A stretch of DNA of 64,000 nucleotides, taken from assembly GCA_016870115.1 (NCBI GenBank), contig VGCH01000007.1:62001-126000 (forward strand), written 5' to 3'. Below the pieces are notes generated by a model. That model had not been told where the DNA came from. It ran no database searches and was given only the letters and a program-made list of their open reading frames with translations. Made by a program: the position numbers and the translations under genes. The DNA comes from Alphaproteobacteria bacterium (GTDB taxonomy: Bacteria > Pseudomonadota > Alphaproteobacteria > Reyranellales > Reyranellaceae). This document shows, piece after piece, positions 3,156 to 37,049 of this stretch (its first letter is position 1; every line of letters starts with the position of its first letter).

Positions 3156-3211
3156 CCGTTTCACGTCCCCCAACGTGCGTGCTACGCTGCCCCAACAGCA
3201 AGGGAATTGCC

Positions 3212-4237
3212 ATGACTGCGATGAATCGACGGGTGCTTCTGAAGTCGCGCCCGAGCGGCGAGCCGACTGTCGCCAATTTCGAGATTTCCGACGCACCGAT
3301 CCCGGAGCCCAAGGAGGGAGAGTATCTCTCCCGGACGATCTGGATGTCGCTCGACCCCTACATGCGCGGTCGCATGGACGACGCCAAGGGCTACGCCGCC
3401 AACGTCAATCTCGGCGACCCGATGGTCGGCGGAACGGTCGGGCAGGTGCTGAAGTCGCGCAATCCCAAGTTCAAGGAAGGCGACTATATCGCCGAGTTCT
3501 CCGGCTGGCAGAGCCACGCGGTTTCCAATGGCGCCGGCGTGATGAAGCTCGATCCGGCGGCCGCGCCGATCTCCACGGCGCTGTCGGTCGTCGGCATGCC
3601 CGGCATGACCGCGTGGTGGGGACTGATGCAGATCGGCAAGCCGAAGGCTGGCGAGACCGTTGTGGTTTCGGCCGCGTCCGGCGCGGTCGGATCGGTGGTC
3701 GGCCAACTCGCGCGGTTGCGGGGCTGCCGCGCCGTCGGGATCGCCGGGGGCAAGGACAAGTGCGACTACGTCGTCAAGGAACTGGGATTCGATGCCTGCA
3801 TCGACTACCGCGCCGAGGGGACGAACCTGTTCAAGGCGATTCGCGCGGCGTGCCCGAAAGGCATCGACATTTATTTCGAGAATGTCGGCGGCGCGGTTCA
3901 GGCTGCGATCCTGCCTCAGATGAATGATTTCGGCCGCATCCCGCTCTGCGGGCTGATCTCGCAATACAACGCCACTGCGATGAGCCCGGGCCCCGATTGG
4001 CGGCTCCTGCTGATCAAGCGGCTGACAGTGTCGGGCTTTATCGTGTCCGACCACTTCACCACCATGGGCGAGTTCTGGAAGGAAGTGCCGGCCGCGGTGC
4101 GGGGCGGCCAGATCAAGTACCGCGAGGATATCGTCAAGGGTATCGACAACGCGCCGGAGGCGTTCATCGGCCTGCTCAAGGGCCGCAATTTCGGCAAGCT
4201 GCTCATCCAGGTGGGTGACGACCCCACCCGCAAGTGA
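3212..4237 (+). CDS. NADP-dependent medium-chain oxidoreductase (PTGR/curcumin reductase-like)
   Basis: A 341-residue zinc-free MDR-family enzyme of the leukotriene-B4 12-hydroxydehydrogenase/prostaglandin reductase type. These reduce alpha,beta-unsaturated ketones or aldehydes with NADPH. Evidence is the N-terminal SLDPYMRGRM signature (about residues 47-56), the Rossmann loop VVSAASGAVGSVVGQLA (about 150-166), and FENVGG in the cofactor domain. No zinc-ligand cysteine cluster is present. ATG 3212 follows AAGGGA. It is divergent from the ankyrin gene. The NUDIX gene begins 19 bases downstream on the same strand, so the two probably form one transcript. Confidence 0.9.
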   Translation: MTAMNRRVLLKSRPSGEPTVANFEISDAPIPEPKEGEYLSRTIWMSLDPYMRGRMDDAKGYAANVNLGDPMVGGTVGQVLKSRNPKFKEGDYIAEFSGWQSHAVSNGAGVMKLDPAAAPISTALSVVGMPGMTAWWGLMQIGKPKAGETVVVSAASGAVGSVVGQLARLRGCRAVGIAGGKDKCDYVVKELGFDACIDYRAEGTNLFKAIRAACPKGIDIYFENVGGAVQAAILPQMNDFGRIPLCGLISQYNATAMSPGPDWRLLLIKRLTVSGFIVSDHFTTMGEFWKEVPAAVRGGQIKYREDIVKGIDNAPEAFIGLLKGRNFGKLLIQVGDDPTRK

Positions 4238-5230: not shown

Positions 5231-6673
5231 ATGGTCGGAATTGTCGCCTATGGGGCCTACGTGCCGCGCCTGCGGCTCAGCCGGCAGGCTGTCTATGACG
5301 CCAACAAGTGGTTCGCTGGCGGCCTGCGCGGCCTCGCCAAGGGCGAGCGCTCGATGGCCAACTGGGATGAGGACTCCATCACCATGGCCGTCGAGGCGTC
5401 GCGCGACTGCCTCACCAGCCACAAGGCCGAGGACGTCCGCCAGATTTACTTCGCCTCGACGACGCACCCCTTCAAGGATCGGCAGAACGCCGGCGTGATC
5501 GGGACCGCGCTCAACGTCGAGCAGGATCTGATGGCCTCGGATGTCGGCGGCTCGCAGAAGGCGGGCACCTCGGCACTCATCGCCGGCCTCAACGCCTCAC
5601 GTGGCGGCCGCAGCTCGCTGGTCGCGGCGGCGGACAAACGGATGACCCGCGTGGCGTCCGCGAACGAACTCAACTACGGCGACGGGGCGGCAGCCCTGCT
5701 GTGCGGTACCGAGAACGTCGTGGCCAAGCTGGTCGGCCACCATTCGGTATCGATGGACTTCGTCGACCATTTCCGCGGCGACGAGAGCGACTTCGACTAT
5801 GGTTGGGAGGAGCGCTGGATCCGCGACGAGGGCTACACCAAGATCGTGCCCCCCGCCATCAAGGCCGCGCTCGCCGCCTGCAAGCTCAAGGGCGCGGACA
5901 TCACGCACTTCATCATGCCGAGCCTGATGCCGGCGGTGCCCAAGCAGATGGCCAAGATGAGCGGCGTCGGCGAGGGCGCGGTGCGCGACCTGCTGGGCGC
6001 GACGCTCGGCGACACCGGCGCGGCGCATGCCCTGGTGATGCTGGTGGACGCGCTGGAGAACGCCAAGGCGGGCGACCGCATCATGGTCGTGGCCTTCGGC
6101 CAGGGCGTCGACGTGCTGGTGTTCGAGGCGACGGAGGCGCTCGCCAAGCTGCCGAAGCGTCGCGGCGTCAGCGGCTGGATGGCACGGCGGAAGGAAGAGA
6201 AGAACTACATGAAGTTCCTCGCCTTCAACGAGATGCTGCCGATCGACAAGGGTATGCGCGCGGAGTTCGACAAAAAGACCGCCCTCAGCATCCTGTGGCG
6301 CAAGCGCGACATGATCTACGGCCTGGTCGGCGGCAAGTGCCGCGTCTGCGGCACCGTCCAGTTCCCGCGAAGCCAGGTTTGCGTCAATCCGAACTGCCAT
6401 GCGGTGGACAGCCAGGACCCCTACAACATGTCCGGGCTCGAAGCGTCGGTCATGTCGTTTACCGCCGACGCGCTCACCTATTCGCCGGACCCGCCGGCCT
6501 ACTACGGGATGATCACGTTTCCCGAGGGCGGGCGGTTCATGGCGGACTTCACCGACAGCGATAAGGAGCAGGTCAAGGTCGGCGCCAAGATGCGCATGAC
6601 CTTCCGGGTCCGCGACAACGACCAGATGCGCGGCGGCTTCAAGCGGTACTTCTGGAAGGCGGCGCCTGCCTGA
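5231..6673 (+). CDS. HMG-CoA-synthase-fold protein fused to DUF35 Zn-ribbon/OB domain, catalytic residues replaced
   Basis: A 480-residue fusion. Residues 1-305 match archaeal-type HMG-CoA synthase (MVGIVAYGAYVPR start, GDGAAALL, MVVAFGQG). Residues about 340-475 are a DUF35 domain with Zn-ribbon cysteines 370, 373, 384 and 389 followed by an OB fold. Aligned by eye to archaeal HMGCS, the catalytic Glu-Cys-His become Thr77 (FASTTHP), Gln109 (GSQKAGT) and about Met229. The HMGCS half is therefore probably structural or has other chemistry. Archaeal HMGCS/ACAT/DUF35 and Pseudomonas PhlACB place these domains in one complex with a thiolase, and a thiolase follows here. ATG 5231 follows AGGGAGGT. 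The substrate is unknown. Confidence 0.85.
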   Translation: MVGIVAYGAYVPRLRLSRQAVYDANKWFAGGLRGLAKGERSMANWDEDSITMAVEASRDCLTSHKAEDVRQIYFASTTHPFKDRQNAGVIGTALNVEQDLMASDVGGSQKAGTSALIAGLNASRGGRSSLVAAADKRMTRVASANELNYGDGAAALLCGTENVVAKLVGHHSVSMDFVDHFRGDESDFDYGWEERWIRDEGYTKIVPPAIKAALAACKLKGADITHFIMPSLMPAVPKQMAKMSGVGEGAVRDLLGATLGDTGAAHALVMLVDALENAKAGDRIMVVAFGQGVDVLVFEATEALAKLPKRRGVSGWMARRKEEKNYMKFLAFNEMLPIDKGMRAEFDKKTALSILWRKRDMIYGLVGGKCRVCGTVQFPRSQVCVNPNCHAVDSQDPYNMSGLEASVMSFTADALTYSPDPPAYYGMITFPEGGRFMADFTDSDKEQVKVGAKMRMTFRVRDNDQMRGGFKRYFWKAAPA

Positions 6674-6736
6674 CGGCCGTCGTCTTCCACTGTTCAAAGG
6701 GTTAAACTCGCGACACTCGCACCAAGGAGACCGACC

Positions 6737-7936
6737 ATGGCTCGCGGAATCAAGGACAAGGTGGCGATTCTCGGAATGGGTTGCTCGAAGTTCGGCGAAC
6801 GCTGGGACAGCGGCGCCGAAGAGCTGATGCTGGAAGCCTACAAGGAGGCGATCGCCGATGCCGGCATCGACTCCAAGCAGATCAACGCCGCGTGGTTTTC
6901 GACCGCGATCGACGAGGTCCATGTCGGCAAGTCCGGCATTCCGCTCAGCACGACGCTGCGACTGCCCAACATTCCCGTGACGCACGTCGAGAACATGTGC
7001 GCGTCGGGCACCGAGGCGTTCCGCGGCGCCTGCTACGCGGTGGCGTCGGGCGCCGCCGATTTCGCGCTGGCGTTGGGCGTCGAGAAGCTGAAGGACACGG
7101 GCTACGGCGGCCTCCCCGGCGGCCGCGGCGCGCCGCTGCAGCAGCTCTGGAACGCCAACGGCACCGCGCCGGGCAACTTCGCCCAGCTCGCGACCGCCTA
7201 CATGGCCGCTCACGGCGTCGGTGGCGACGATCTCAAGCGCGCTATCGGGCATGTGTCTTGGAAGAGCCATCAGAACGGCGCCAAGAACCCCAAGGCCCAC
7301 CTCCAGAAGGCGGTGGAAATGGACACGATCCTGAACGCTCCGATGATCGCCTCGCCGCTCGGCCTCTTCGATTGCTGCGGCGTGAGCGATGGCGCCGCCG
7401 CTGCGATCGTGACCACGCCCGAGATCGCCAAGGCGCTCGGCAAGTCCAACATCGTGAGCGTGAAGGCGCTGCAGCTCTCGGTCTCCAACGGCTCGGAGTC
7501 CGGCCACAACTCGTGGGACGGCAGCTACTTCCACACGACCCGCATCGCCTCGAAGAAGGCCTATGAAGAGGCCGGCATCAAGAACCCGCGCGGCGAGGTC
7601 TCGATGTTCGAGGTGCACGACTGCTTCTCGGTCACCGAACTCGTGACCATGGAGGACCTTCACATCTCCGAGACCGGCAAGGGCTGGAAGGACGTGCTCG
7701 ACGGTTTCTACGATGCCGACGGCAAGATCCCGTGCCAGATCGACGGCGGCCTCAAGTGCTTCGGTCATCCGATCGGCGCCTCGGGCCTGCGGATGCTCTA
7801 CGAGATGTATCTGCAGTTCCAGGGCCGCGCCGGCGCGCGCCAGCTCAAGGACCCTCGCATCGGCATGACCCACAATCTGGGCGGCGCCCCGCGCGAAAAC
7901 GTTTCGAGCGTGGCGATCGTCGGTCGCTTCGAATAG
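6737..7936 (+). CDS. SCP-x/PhlC-type thiolase
   Basis: A 399-residue thiolase-fold enzyme expected to make or break a carbon-carbon bond in an acyl-CoA by Claisen or retro-Claisen chemistry. The nucleophile is Cys88 in VENMCASG, His294 lies in VHDCFSVTEL, and His344 lies in the GHPIGASG loop. The usual C-terminal Cys-Gly-Gly is replaced by NLGG, as in the SCP-x/PhlC group. That group normally works with a DUF35 partner, here likely the domain fused to the gene 63 bases upstream. The start follows AAGGAGA. It is closely similar to the thiolase at 35784. An intrinsic terminator follows directly. Confidence 0.92.
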   Translation: MARGIKDKVAILGMGCSKFGERWDSGAEELMLEAYKEAIADAGIDSKQINAAWFSTAIDEVHVGKSGIPLSTTLRLPNIPVTHVENMCASGTEAFRGACYAVASGAADFALALGVEKLKDTGYGGLPGGRGAPLQQLWNANGTAPGNFAQLATAYMAAHGVGGDDLKRAIGHVSWKSHQNGAKNPKAHLQKAVEMDTILNAPMIASPLGLFDCCGVSDGAAAAIVTTPEIAKALGKSNIVSVKALQLSVSNGSESGHNSWDGSYFHTTRIASKKAYEEAGIKNPRGEVSMFEVHDCFSVTELVTMEDLHISETGKGWKDVLDGFYDADGKIPCQIDGGLKCFGHPIGASGLRMLYEMYLQFQGRAGARQLKDPRIGMTHNLGGAPRENVSSVAIVGRFE

Positions 7937-8016: not shown

Positions 8017-8478
8017 GTGCAGCTCGACAAGGCTCTGATCGGCCACACCTTCAAGGCCTTCACCACCACGGTGGAGGCCGGCAAGGTCAGGCTCTTCTGC
8101 AAGGCGATCGGTGAGGAAAACCCGATCTACACCGACCCGGCGGCGGCGAAGGCGGCGGGACATCCCGGCATCCCGGTGCCGCCCACGTTCTTTACCGCGC
8201 TCACCAACGACGATCCGGATAAGGGCGGGCTGCTGCGGCTTCTCAAGGTCGATATCGGTCTGATTCTGCACGGTGAGCAGCACTACGAGTATCTGGCGCC
8301 CGTGCATGTCGGCGACCGCGTCACCTGCCAGCAGAAGGTGGTGGACATCTACGACAAGAAGGGCGGCGCGCTCTGGTTCGTGGTCTCGGAGACCGAACTC
8401 AAGGATCAGACGGGCAAGCCGGTGGCCAAGGCGCGCGGCATTACCGTCGTGCGCAACCCCGACGGCGCGAAGAAGTGA
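8017..8478 (+). CDS. MaoC N-terminal-type hotdog protein, hydratase dyad absent
   Basis: A 153-residue protein of the FAS1-dehydratase/MaoC_dehydrat_N type (VRLFCKAIGEENPIYTD, then PPTFFTAL). Where R-specific hydratases have Asp-x4-His, the aligned positions are Glu33 and Tyr38, so it is probably the non-catalytic half of a heteromeric hydratase, as in the ChsH1-ChsH2 type. The GTG start follows GGGGAGGGGC. The next gene, 11 bases downstream, encodes the hotdog with an intact dyad. The predicted pair hydrates an enoyl-CoA of unknown structure. Confidence 0.85.
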   Translation: MQLDKALIGHTFKAFTTTVEAGKVRLFCKAIGEENPIYTDPAAAKAAGHPGIPVPPTFFTALTNDDPDKGGLLRLLKVDIGLILHGEQHYEYLAPVHVGDRVTCQQKVVDIYDKKGGALWFVVSETELKDQTGKPVAKARGITVVRNPDGAKK

Positions 8479-8489
8479 GGGAGACCGCC

Positions 8490-8912
8490 ATGGCGACCGC
8501 ACCCAAGTTCGACCAGGTCAAGGTGGGCGACGCGCTTCCGGCGCTCGTCCTGCCGCCGATCAACCGTCACCAGCTCGCGCTCTACTGCGGCGGTTCGGGC
8601 GACCACAATCCGATCCACGTCGATATCGACTTCGCCAAGAAGTTCGGTTTCAAGGACGTCTTCGCCCACGGCATGCTGTCGATGGCGTTCCTCGGCCGCC
8701 TCGCCACCTCGTGGGTACCGCAGGGCCAGGTCCGCAAACTCGGTACGCGCTTCACCTCCATCACTTGGGTGGGCGACGTCATTACCGTGACCGGCAAGAT
8801 CACGGGCAAGCGCGAGGAGGGCGGCGCCAGACTGGTCGACCTCGAGATCAAGTGCACAAACCAGAACGGCCAGGATACGCTGCAGGGCGACGCCACGGTC
8901 GTGTTGAACTGA
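8490..8912 (+). CDS. MaoC family (R)-enoyl-CoA hydratase subunit
   Basis: A 140-residue single hotdog carrying the hydratase-2 motif GDHNPIHVD with Asp38 and His43 as the expected catalytic dyad, followed by the substrate-loop segment VFAHGML. It should add water across a 2-enoyl-CoA to give the (3R)-hydroxyacyl-CoA. ATG 8490 is preferred, with GAGGGAGA upstream; a GTG at 8475 overlaps the preceding stop. It is co-transcribed with the dyad-less MaoC protein before it and the SDR after it (16-base gap). That SDR is the natural enzyme to oxidise the product. Confidence 0.9.
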   Translation: MATAPKFDQVKVGDALPALVLPPINRHQLALYCGGSGDHNPIHVDIDFAKKFGFKDVFAHGMLSMAFLGRLATSWVPQGQVRKLGTRFTSITWVGDVITVTGKITGKREEGGARLVDLEIKCTNQNGQDTLQGDATVVLN

Positions 8913-8928: not shown

Positions 8929-9753
8929 ATGGGTCAGATGGACGGCAAGGTCGCGATCGTCACCGGATCGGGGCGCGGCATCGGCCGCGAGATCGCGCTG
9001 CGGCTGGTGCGCGACGGCGCGAAGGTGGTCATCAACGACATCGACGAGGCGCCGGCGAAGGAGACCATTGCCGACATCGAACGGATGGGCGGCAAGGCCG
9101 TCGCGTGCAACGGTGATGTTTCCAAGCCGGATTTCGGCGATCGCATCGTCAAGACCGCGGTCGACGCGTTCGGCGGCTGCCATGTTGTCGTGAACAACGC
9201 CGGCTACACTTGGGACTCGGTCATCCAGAAGATGACCGACGAGCAGTGGCACGCCATCCTCGAAGTGCATCTCACGGCGCCGTTCCGCATCCTGCGCGCG
9301 TTCCAGCAGCATTTCCGTACCGAAGTGGAGAAGGAGCGTTCGGCCGGCAAGCGCATCGTGCGCAAGGTCGTCAACATCTCGTCGACCTCGGGCGTCAACG
9401 GCAATGCCGGTCAGTCGAACTACTCCGCGGGCAAGGCCGGCATCGTCGGCCTTACCAAGACGCTGGCCAAGGAGTTCGGCCGCTACGACGTCACGGTGAA
9501 CGCCGTGGCGTTCGGGTACATCCAGACCCGCCTCACCAAGCCGCTGGCGCAGGGCGAGGATGGCGAGATCGAGGTGCAGGGTCGCAAGGTCAAGATCGGC
9601 GTCCAGGGCGGTCGGATCGCGGCCATGAACCAGATGATCCCGCTCGGCCGCGGCGGGCTGCCGGAAGAGGCCGCAGGATCGGTGTATCTCTTCTGCAGCC
9701 CCGACAGCGACTATGTCAGCGGCCAGTGCCTGGTGGTGAACGGCGGCCTATGA
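8929..9753 (+). CDS. SDR-family 3-hydroxyacyl-CoA dehydrogenase (predicted)
   Basis: A 274-residue classical SDR: TGSGRGIG cofactor loop (12-19), NNAG, and the Ser152-Tyr165-Lys169 triad (YSAGK). The order hydratase pair then SDR, together with the upstream thiolase, fits a beta-oxidation-like sequence. By context it would oxidise the (3R)-hydroxyacyl-CoA made by the MaoC proteins. The sequence resembles the dehydrogenase domain of multifunctional (R)-specific enzymes (DVSKPDFG, LAKEFGRYDVTVNAVAFG). Compared with FabG it has a longer substrate loop around residues 195-225. It ends overlapping the convergent MFS gene by six bases. The family is sure, the substrate inferred. Confidence 0.88.
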   Translation: MGQMDGKVAIVTGSGRGIGREIALRLVRDGAKVVINDIDEAPAKETIADIERMGGKAVACNGDVSKPDFGDRIVKTAVDAFGGCHVVVNNAGYTWDSVIQKMTDEQWHAILEVHLTAPFRILRAFQQHFRTEVEKERSAGKRIVRKVVNISSTSGVNGNAGQSNYSAGKAGIVGLTKTLAKEFGRYDVTVNAVAFGYIQTRLTKPLAQGEDGEIEVQGRKVKIGVQGGRIAAMNQMIPLGRGGLPEEAAGSVYLFCSPDSDYVSGQCLVVNGGL

Positions 9754-35783: not shown

Positions 35784-36986
35784 CTAGGCGTGCTCGCGGC
35801 CGACGATCGCCACCGAGCAGACGTTGCGGGCGGGAAATCCGCCGAGATTGTGGGTGAGGCACAGATCGACGGCGCCACGCTGGCGCGCGCCGGCGCGCCC
35901 CTGCAACTGCAGATACATTTCGTAGAGCATGCGAATGCCTGACGCGCCGATCGGATGGCCAAAGCACTTCAGTCCGCCATCGATCTGGCAGGGAATGCGC
36001 CCGTCGCCGTCGTAGAAGCCGTCCAGCACGTCCTTCACCGCGCCGCCCTCGGGCGAGATATGCAGGTCCTCAAGCGTCACCAGTTCGGTGACCGAGAAAC
36101 AGTCGTGGCACTCGACGAGGCTCAGTTGCTCGCGCGGCCGCTCGATGCCAGCTTCACGATAGGCGCGGGAGGCCGCAATCCGCGCAGTCGCAAAGTAGCT
36201 GCCGTCCCAGGTTGAGTGGCTCTCTTCGATGCCGTTGGAGGCCGCGATCTGAAGCGCCTTCACCGTCACGATGTCGCGCTTGCCAAGCGCCTTGGCGATC
36301 TCCGGCGTGGTGACGATCGCGGCAGCGGCGCCGTCGCTCACGCCGCAGCAGTCGTAGAGTCCCAGAGGGTCGGCGACCAACGGCGCGTTCAGCACGTCGT
36401 CCTCGGTGATTGCGCGTTGGAGATGAGCCTTGGGGTTCTTGAGCCCGTTGGCGTGGCTCTTGACCGAGATTCGCGCCATCGCGCGTTTCAGGTCCTCGCG
36501 GCTGACGCCGTGCTTGGCGCGATAGGCCGAGGCGAGCTGGGCGAAGCTGCCGGGAGCCGTGAGGTTGGCCCACCACAACGGCGCCTGCGTCCCCGCCGTA
36601 AGGCCGGGCAGGCCGCCGAAGCCGGTGTCCTTCAGTTTCTCGACGCCCAGCGCCAGTGCGACGTCGCAGGCACCGGCGGCGACGGCATAGACGGCCGACC
36701 GGAAGGCGTCGGAGCCGGAAGCGCAGTAGTTCTCCACCCGGCTCACCGGGATGTAGTCGAAGCGCAGGGTCTCGGCGAGCGGCAGGCCGGACTTGCCGAC
36801 GTTTACCTCGTCGAGGCAGGTCGAGAGCCAAGCGGCCTCGATTCGCTTGCGTTCGATGCCGGCGTCAGCCAACGCCTCGCCGAACGCGGCGACCATCAGC
36901 TCTTCGGCGCCCTTGCTCCAATGCTCGCCGAAGGGCGTGCAACCCATGCCAAGGATCGCGACCTTGTCCCGAATGCCAGATGCCAT
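35784..36986 (-). CDS. SCP-x/PhlC-type thiolase, second copy
   Basis: A 400-residue thiolase-like enzyme closely similar along its whole length to that at 6737. Shared features are the N-terminus (GIRDKVAILGMGC), Cys88 in VENYCASG, HDCFSVTEL, GHPIGASG and the NLGG ending. Members usually depend on a DUF35 partner, and none is encoded next to it, so it may borrow the DUF35 fusion at 5231 or use an unlinked partner. ATG 36986 follows GGGAGAGG. The P450 lies about 100 bases upstream and the QOR-type reductase directly downstream, suggesting oxidation followed by chain or ring cleavage of a hydrophobic substrate. Confidence 0.92.
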   Translation of the reverse strand: MASGIRDKVAILGMGCTPFGEHWSKGAEELMVAAFGEALADAGIERKRIEAAWLSTCLDEVNVGKSGLPLAETLRFDYIPVSRVENYCASGSDAFRSAVYAVAAGACDVALALGVEKLKDTGFGGLPGLTAGTQAPLWWANLTAPGSFAQLASAYRAKHGVSREDLKRAMARISVKSHANGLKNPKAHLQRAITEDDVLNAPLVADPLGLYDCCGVSDGAAAAIVTTPEIAKALGKRDIVTVKALQIAASNGIEESHSTWDGSYFATARIAASRAYREAGIERPREQLSLVECHDCFSVTELVTLEDLHISPEGGAVKDVLDGFYDGDGRIPCQIDGGLKCFGHPIGASGIRMLYEMYLQLQGRAGARQRGAVDLCLTHNLGGFPARNVCSVAIVGREHA

Positions 36987-37049
36987 GCCCCTCTCCCTGT
37001 CTCCCACGCGGATGCCGCCCGTTCTGCCCATCGTATCGTCCTGAATACC

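Follow-up and report, generated by a model that had tools for sequence, protein, structure and literature searches.

The locus lies in a 64,000-nucleotide stretch of DNA that was analysed as a whole (the window), from an alphaproteobacterial genome of 3.56 Mb. Five genes run on the same strand: a fused HMGCS-fold/DUF35 protein, which comes first, a thiolase, two MaoC-like hydratase subunits (MaoC1 and MaoC2) and an SDR-family dehydrogenase (Table 1). The best-matching loci were found in Reyranella and other Rhodospirillales-labelled genomes; this five-gene order was also present in Reyranella-type loci with contigs long enough, the SDR gene being conserved after MaoC2. In more distant alphaproteobacterial loci (55-59% identity), only the fusion and the thiolase were kept nearby. 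MaoC1 is without the D-x-N-P-x-H hydratase motif and carries EENPIY there, and MaoC2 has the motif (GDHNPIH); one motif-bearing subunit of two is the arrangement of heteromeric HadAB-like hydratases. Neither an acyl-CoA dehydrogenase nor a CoA ligase was recognised within the window operon. The source genome was searched for a second HMGCS-DUF35 gene and only the window copy was found; the same genome holds two further DUF35 genes (L001 G000:C16, L002 G000:C4), each adjoining a thiolase-like gene and without an HMGCS half.

Table 1 Features of the window and split operons in related loci
Feature	Position	Strand	Basis or remark
Oxidoreductase gene, upstream	3206-4237		CurA/MDR type resemblance by eye
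Fused HMGCS-fold/DUF35 protein	5231-6673	+	Single 480-aa frame, coordinates exact
HMGCS-fold domain, residues 1-~335	5231..6235	+	NF003274/TIGR00748 matches, AlphaFold model fold match
Low-confidence linker between HMGCS fold and DUF35, residues ~336-360	6236..6310	+	pLDDT < 50 at 338-362
DUF35 domain, zinc ribbon + OB fold	6311..6673	+	PF12172 at 364-391, PF01796 at 400-459
Thiolase	6737-7936	+	399 aa; Cys88, His294-Asp-Cys296-Phe, Gly-His344-Pro
MaoC-like hydratase subunit 1 (FAS1_DH/HadA-like)	8017-8478	+	PF13452 3.5e-40
MaoC-like hydratase subunit 2 (HadB-like)	8490-8912	+	PF01575 1.6e-20
SDR-family dehydrogenase (3-ketoacyl/3-hydroxyacyl type)	8929-9753	+	PF00106/PF13561, FabG-like NCBIfam matches
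Second thiolase, same subfamily	35784-37031	minus	70% identical
Split operon loci	L166 7590-10213; L167 7262-9873; L168 6705-9357; L128 5877-9048

The fused protein was matched by NF003274 over residues 1-335 and by TIGR00748 over residues 1-327, at 181 and 123 bits, respectively, neither of which reached the curated cut-offs (244 and 353). The C-terminal part was assigned to zf-ChsH2 (residues 364-391) and OB_ChsH2_C (residues 400-459), and the zinc-ribbon cysteines Cys370, Cys373, Cys384 and Cys389 are present. An AlphaFold model gave a mean pLDDT of 80 and a pTM of 0.84, with a weak linker at residues 338-362. The initial annotation had proposed a structure-based alignment to the Methanothermococcus and PhlACB proteins as a check; when the model was compared using VIA-align, the HMGCS half aligned with chain I of 6ET9/6ESQ at Z 42.2 (322-323 residues, 2.1 A), with PhlA at Z 39-40 and with MucA at Z 37, and other HMG-CoA synthases scored lower than all of these (Z ~34). 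A frame or assembly artefact was rejected as the source of the fusion, fused frames being found in 64/385 alphaproteobacterial genomes, and the earlier description of one 480-residue frame joining the two folds was thus borne out. Separately, zinc-ribbon cysteines were seen to be lost in the fusions of Sphingomonas paeninsulae and Sphingopyxis (one left and none, respectively; L084 7001-8446 and L088 6980-8410). Because some relatives are without the zinc ligands, the ribbon is not always needed, and zinc seems, judging from these sequences, dispensable in some members.

The active-site columns of the HMGCS half were read from an alignment to Methanothermococcus HMGCS and PhlA. Gln109 occupies the Cys column and Thr77 the Glu column; in the His column, different aligners place Ile228, Met229 or Pro230, none of which is His. 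The initial annotation had read these columns as non-catalytic and had named a conserved Cys, Glu and His as what would speak against it; none of the three was found in the window protein. Conservation was assessed in 32 diverse fusion relatives sharing <80% identity with each other. Column 109 is Gln in 22, Arg in three, Leu in two, Ser, Pro, Ala and Gly in one each and a gap in the remaining one, so that Cys is absent from 32/32, and its conservation is merely average. Thr77 is kept in 29/32, and column 230 is Pro in 22/32 and His in two. The split alphaproteobacterial homologues described below and the haloarchaeal fusions likewise lack Cys and Glu (column 109 is P or A in split homologues and T in one haloarchaeal sequence). 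Since these losses recur across relatives, split homologues and haloarchaeal fusions, the dead HMGCS half is, on the evidence of the alignments, a family trait.

Two readings that leave the HMGCS half catalytic can be weighed against these columns. An active HMG-CoA synthase serving the mevalonate pathway is scarcely credible as the identity of the fused protein: NF003274 and TIGR00748 do match across the domain, but at 181 versus 244 and 123 versus 353 bits, with all three of Glu, Cys and His absent. An archaeal HMG-CoA synthase identity was rejected for the same missing residues and scores under cut-off. The initial annotation had also raised a changed chemistry, in which Gln in place of Cys forms a decarboxylating site like that of KSQ domains. 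Gln109 does stand exactly at the Cys column and is kept in 22/32 relatives, alongside the well-kept Thr77, but R, L, S, P, A and G occur there too, split homologues have P or A and a haloarchaeal sequence T, and there is no His at 228-230 of the window protein. Given that column 109 is variable and Gln is not conserved as a catalytic residue would be, KSQ-like chemistry is unsupported; the candidate was set aside, and we consider it very unlikely.

The thiolase matched NF004810/PRK06157 at 692.6 bits, above the cut-off of 403. Its nearest sequences were 7yvy, archaeal 6esq_A, 4yzo and BbsB, with 7pxp_C also among the nearest solved structures, and it resembles archaeal acetoacetyl-CoA thiolase, BbsB and SCP2 thiolases. 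Cys88, HDCF (294-297) and GHP (343-345) were invariant in 82/82 paired relatives, which agrees with the catalytic Cys88 of the initial annotation. His294, Cys296 and His344, intact in the window thiolase and equally invariant, we take to be the acid/base and oxyanion residues. As the active site is that of a usual thiolase, an ordinary thiolase reaction is the default, and ordinary activity would be expected from the residues present. A structure prediction of the thiolase only, from 15 close relatives, was poor (pLDDT 50). The second thiolase of the window adjoins a gene for a likely cytochrome P450 and genes resembling enoyl-CoA hydratases. No HMGCS-DUF35 partner lies near this copy, which may use the one fused protein jointly with the first thiolase.

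The label PhlC-type, given to the thiolase in the initial annotation, did not hold: PhlC carries Tyr-Asp at the HDCF position, whereas HDCF and GHP are kept here. An aldolase-type (Ltp2/Sal) label was rejected as well, those enzymes having YDHF/YDCY at that position (PMC12329534). We regard as improbable, on the same residues, a thiolase that acts non-thiolytically on a special substrate, either as a retro-aldolase (like Ltp2/Sal) or as a C-acylase (like PhlC). DUF35-associated thiolase-fold enzymes do include aldolases and acylases (PMC12329534, PMC6392133), and some relatives adjoin ring-hydroxylating dioxygenases and a CoA ligase, but the aldolases have Tyr and PhlC Tyr-Asp at a position where this subfamily has HDCF, together with GHP, in every paired relative.

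Partnership between the two proteins was examined in 385 alphaproteobacterial genomes, with the thiolase subfamily counted at E <= 1e-100. Fusion and thiolase subfamily occurred in exactly the same 64 genomes (38 genera by tally). The corresponding Fisher p of ~1e-74 counts genomes as independent despite shared ancestry and therefore overstates the case. The thiolase lies directly downstream of the fusion in 58/69 cases, with a gap of 16-206 bp, and for the remaining fusions it is 0.9-3.4 kb away, except in one genome in which the two are on separate contigs. In this last genome (L169/G147), the partnership thus seems to be kept without close linkage. Five genomes contain two fusions, and each of them also contains two thiolases; five further genomes, including that of the window, have one extra thiolase and no second fusion; here either the partner is shared or the thiolase works alone. 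The two genes are likewise neighbours in Azoarcus, Variovorax, Sphingomonas, Rhodococcus, M. avium and Streptomyces plasmids, and in haloarchaea the thiolase comes first and the fusion second. In Paraburkholderia sp. PGU19 (L096 8443-9700), the thiolase beside the fusion matches in two separate frames with no annotated gene, possibly a pseudogene or a sequencing error.

In every pair the thiolase shows higher conservation (mean 67%) than the HMGCS half (mean 48%), a pattern as would be expected of a catalyst and its scaffold. Strict co-occurrence points to one enzyme, and the fusion and the thiolase probably form a single enzyme making or breaking C-C bonds in fatty-acid-like compounds. With no Cys at column 109 in the 32 relatives and with this strict co-occurrence, the earlier proposal that PhlA- and PhlB-like roles are fused here and that the HMGCS half looks like a scaffold was upheld.

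Split operons were also found, in which the thiolase, an HMGCS-like protein (~335 aa) and a DUF35 protein are encoded by three consecutive genes (Table 1); these are likely the unfused counterpart of the window protein. A tree of the HMGCS domain, in which active HMGCS was represented by one row and the PhlA-like sequences formed one long branch, placed the bacterial fusions in one clade (99/95) and the haloarchaeal fusions in a separate clade grouping weakly (87/68) with the split forms. Archaeal HMGCS grouped with PhlA and not with the fused family. The single clade of bacterial fusions suggests that the fusion arose once in bacteria. On the assumption of an active ancestor, HMGCS catalysis may, tentatively, have been lost at least twice, in the PhlA line and in the fused line.

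We propose, at a probability of roughly 0.7, that the pair is a heteromeric thiolase with a non-catalytic HMGCS-DUF35 partner, most likely completing a beta-oxidation module. The 399-aa protein would be the catalytic subunit, with Cys88 as nucleophile, and the 480-aa protein its non-catalytic partner. By analogy with the archaeal thiolase/HMGCS/DUF35 and PhlABC complexes, the DUF35 domain would pack on the thiolase with the dead HMGCS-fold half beside it, and the partner would stabilise the assembly and shape the acyl-CoA/CoA site. The MaoC pair and SDR would convert enoyl-CoA to 3-hydroxyacyl-CoA and then to 3-ketoacyl-CoA, with thiolysis last. That a thiolase-fold protein requires DUF35 has precedents in the Shy-Sal pair, whose thiolase-fold enzyme associates with the DUF35 domain (PMC12329534), and in haloarchaeal BktB/PhaA, which cease to function when the beta subunit loses its OB domain (PMC7137286). 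In PpATase, only PhlC residues act in catalysis (PMC6392133). The physical complex, the role of the dead half, the direction and the substrate are inferred; the help given by the dead half may lie in stability, the CoA site or specificity.

The neighbours of relatives include acyl-CoA dehydrogenases, CoA transferases, MaoC proteins, SDRs, enoyl-CoA hydratases and ring-hydroxylating dioxygenases, which, together with the MaoC-MaoC-SDR genes of the window, point to a module for beta-oxidation whose last step is thiolysis. Because the window operon has no recognised acyl-CoA dehydrogenase or CoA ligase, the degradative direction is drawn mainly from the neighbourhoods of relatives. On Rhodococcus and M. 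avium plasmids (L095, L097, L090), a ring-hydroxylating dioxygenase, an AMP-binding ligase and three enoyl-CoA hydratases precede the pair, which suggests an aromatic-acid CoA pathway there.

The same five genes could run synthetically, with the thiolase condensing acyl-CoAs and the SDR and MaoC pair reducing and dehydrating the product (reverse beta-oxidation or PHA-precursor supply). The FabG-like SDR, the HadA/HadB-like MaoC pair and the upstream CurA/MDR-like oxidoreductase fit this direction, and DUF35-dependent thiolases are synthetic both when Haloferax makes PHA (PMC7137286) and in the mevalonate pathway of archaea. We nevertheless hold it unlikely, as the relatives adjoin catabolic sets (acyl-CoA dehydrogenases, CoA transferases and ring-hydroxylating dioxygenases) and among the five genes neither a PHA synthase nor a CoA-dependent enoyl reductase was recognised. 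A thiolase reaction not yet described, in which an unusual branched or cyclic 3-keto substrate is cleaved or acylated and the dead HMGCS half sets specificity in the pocket, would be a long shot.

For the heteromeric thiolase proposed here, database names such as 'OB-fold domain-containing protein', '3-oxoacyl-ACP synthase III C-terminal domain' and 'hydroxymethylglutaryl-CoA synthase' miss the probable role of the fusion as a second thiolase subunit. It would also be unwise to annotate a mevalonate-pathway HMGCS, or an acetyl-CoA acetyltransferase acting alone, on the strength of such matches. The strict pairing also raises the question of why a thiolase needs a 50-kDa partner with a dead enzyme half. 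The suggestion of an undescribed complex and reaction was weakened: the architecture (6ESQ, PhlABC, MucABC), an inactive HMGCS-fold partner (PMC6392133) and DUF35 fusions (PMC2954200) are known and the active site is that of an ordinary thiolase, and what stands is a widespread fused form, apparently an uncharacterised variant of a known complex type. No experimental study of it was found in the open-access literature.

A three-part thiolase/HMGCS/DUF35 architecture is known from 6ESQ, PhlABC and MucABC, and the window locus encodes the three together as these systems do. The Methanothermococcus complex (6ESQ/6ET9) has the same three folds and a thiolase close by sequence (6esq_A). Unlike that complex, the window pair carries HMGCS and DUF35 as one chain, has catabolic neighbours and has an HMGCS half without Glu, Cys and His; the loss of these residues leaves no second, HMGCS step to which a product could be channelled. 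PhlACB/PpATase and MucABC combine an inactive HMGCS-fold subunit, a DUF35 protein and a catalytic thiolase-fold subunit, as proposed for the window pair. PhlA and PhlB are separate chains and PhlC has Tyr-Asp, whereas the window protein is fused and its thiolase has HDCF. PhlA has suffered the same kind of loss, of Cys (Gly115) and Glu (Cys83) (PMC6392133).

BbsAB and haloarchaeal BktB/PhaA, like the window pair, consist of a thiolase with a Zn-ribbon/OB partner, and BbsB aligns with the window thiolase, with conserved HD and GHPIGASG motifs. We know of no HMGCS-fold half reported for BbsA. Nor has one been reported for the BktB/PhaA beta partner, unlike the window fusion, and the haloarchaeal alpha subunits are reported as Ser-His-His where the window thiolase has Cys. 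The fusion of DUF35 to thiolase-superfamily proteins was already noted in 2010 (PMC2954200). In Ltp2-ChsH2 and Sal-Shy, a thiolase-fold catalyst binds a DUF35 domain that belongs to a different enzyme (PMC12329534); there the fusion partner of DUF35 is a MaoC hydratase and the catalytic motif is YDxF/Y, whereas in the window DUF35 is fused to an HMGCS fold and the motif is HDCF.
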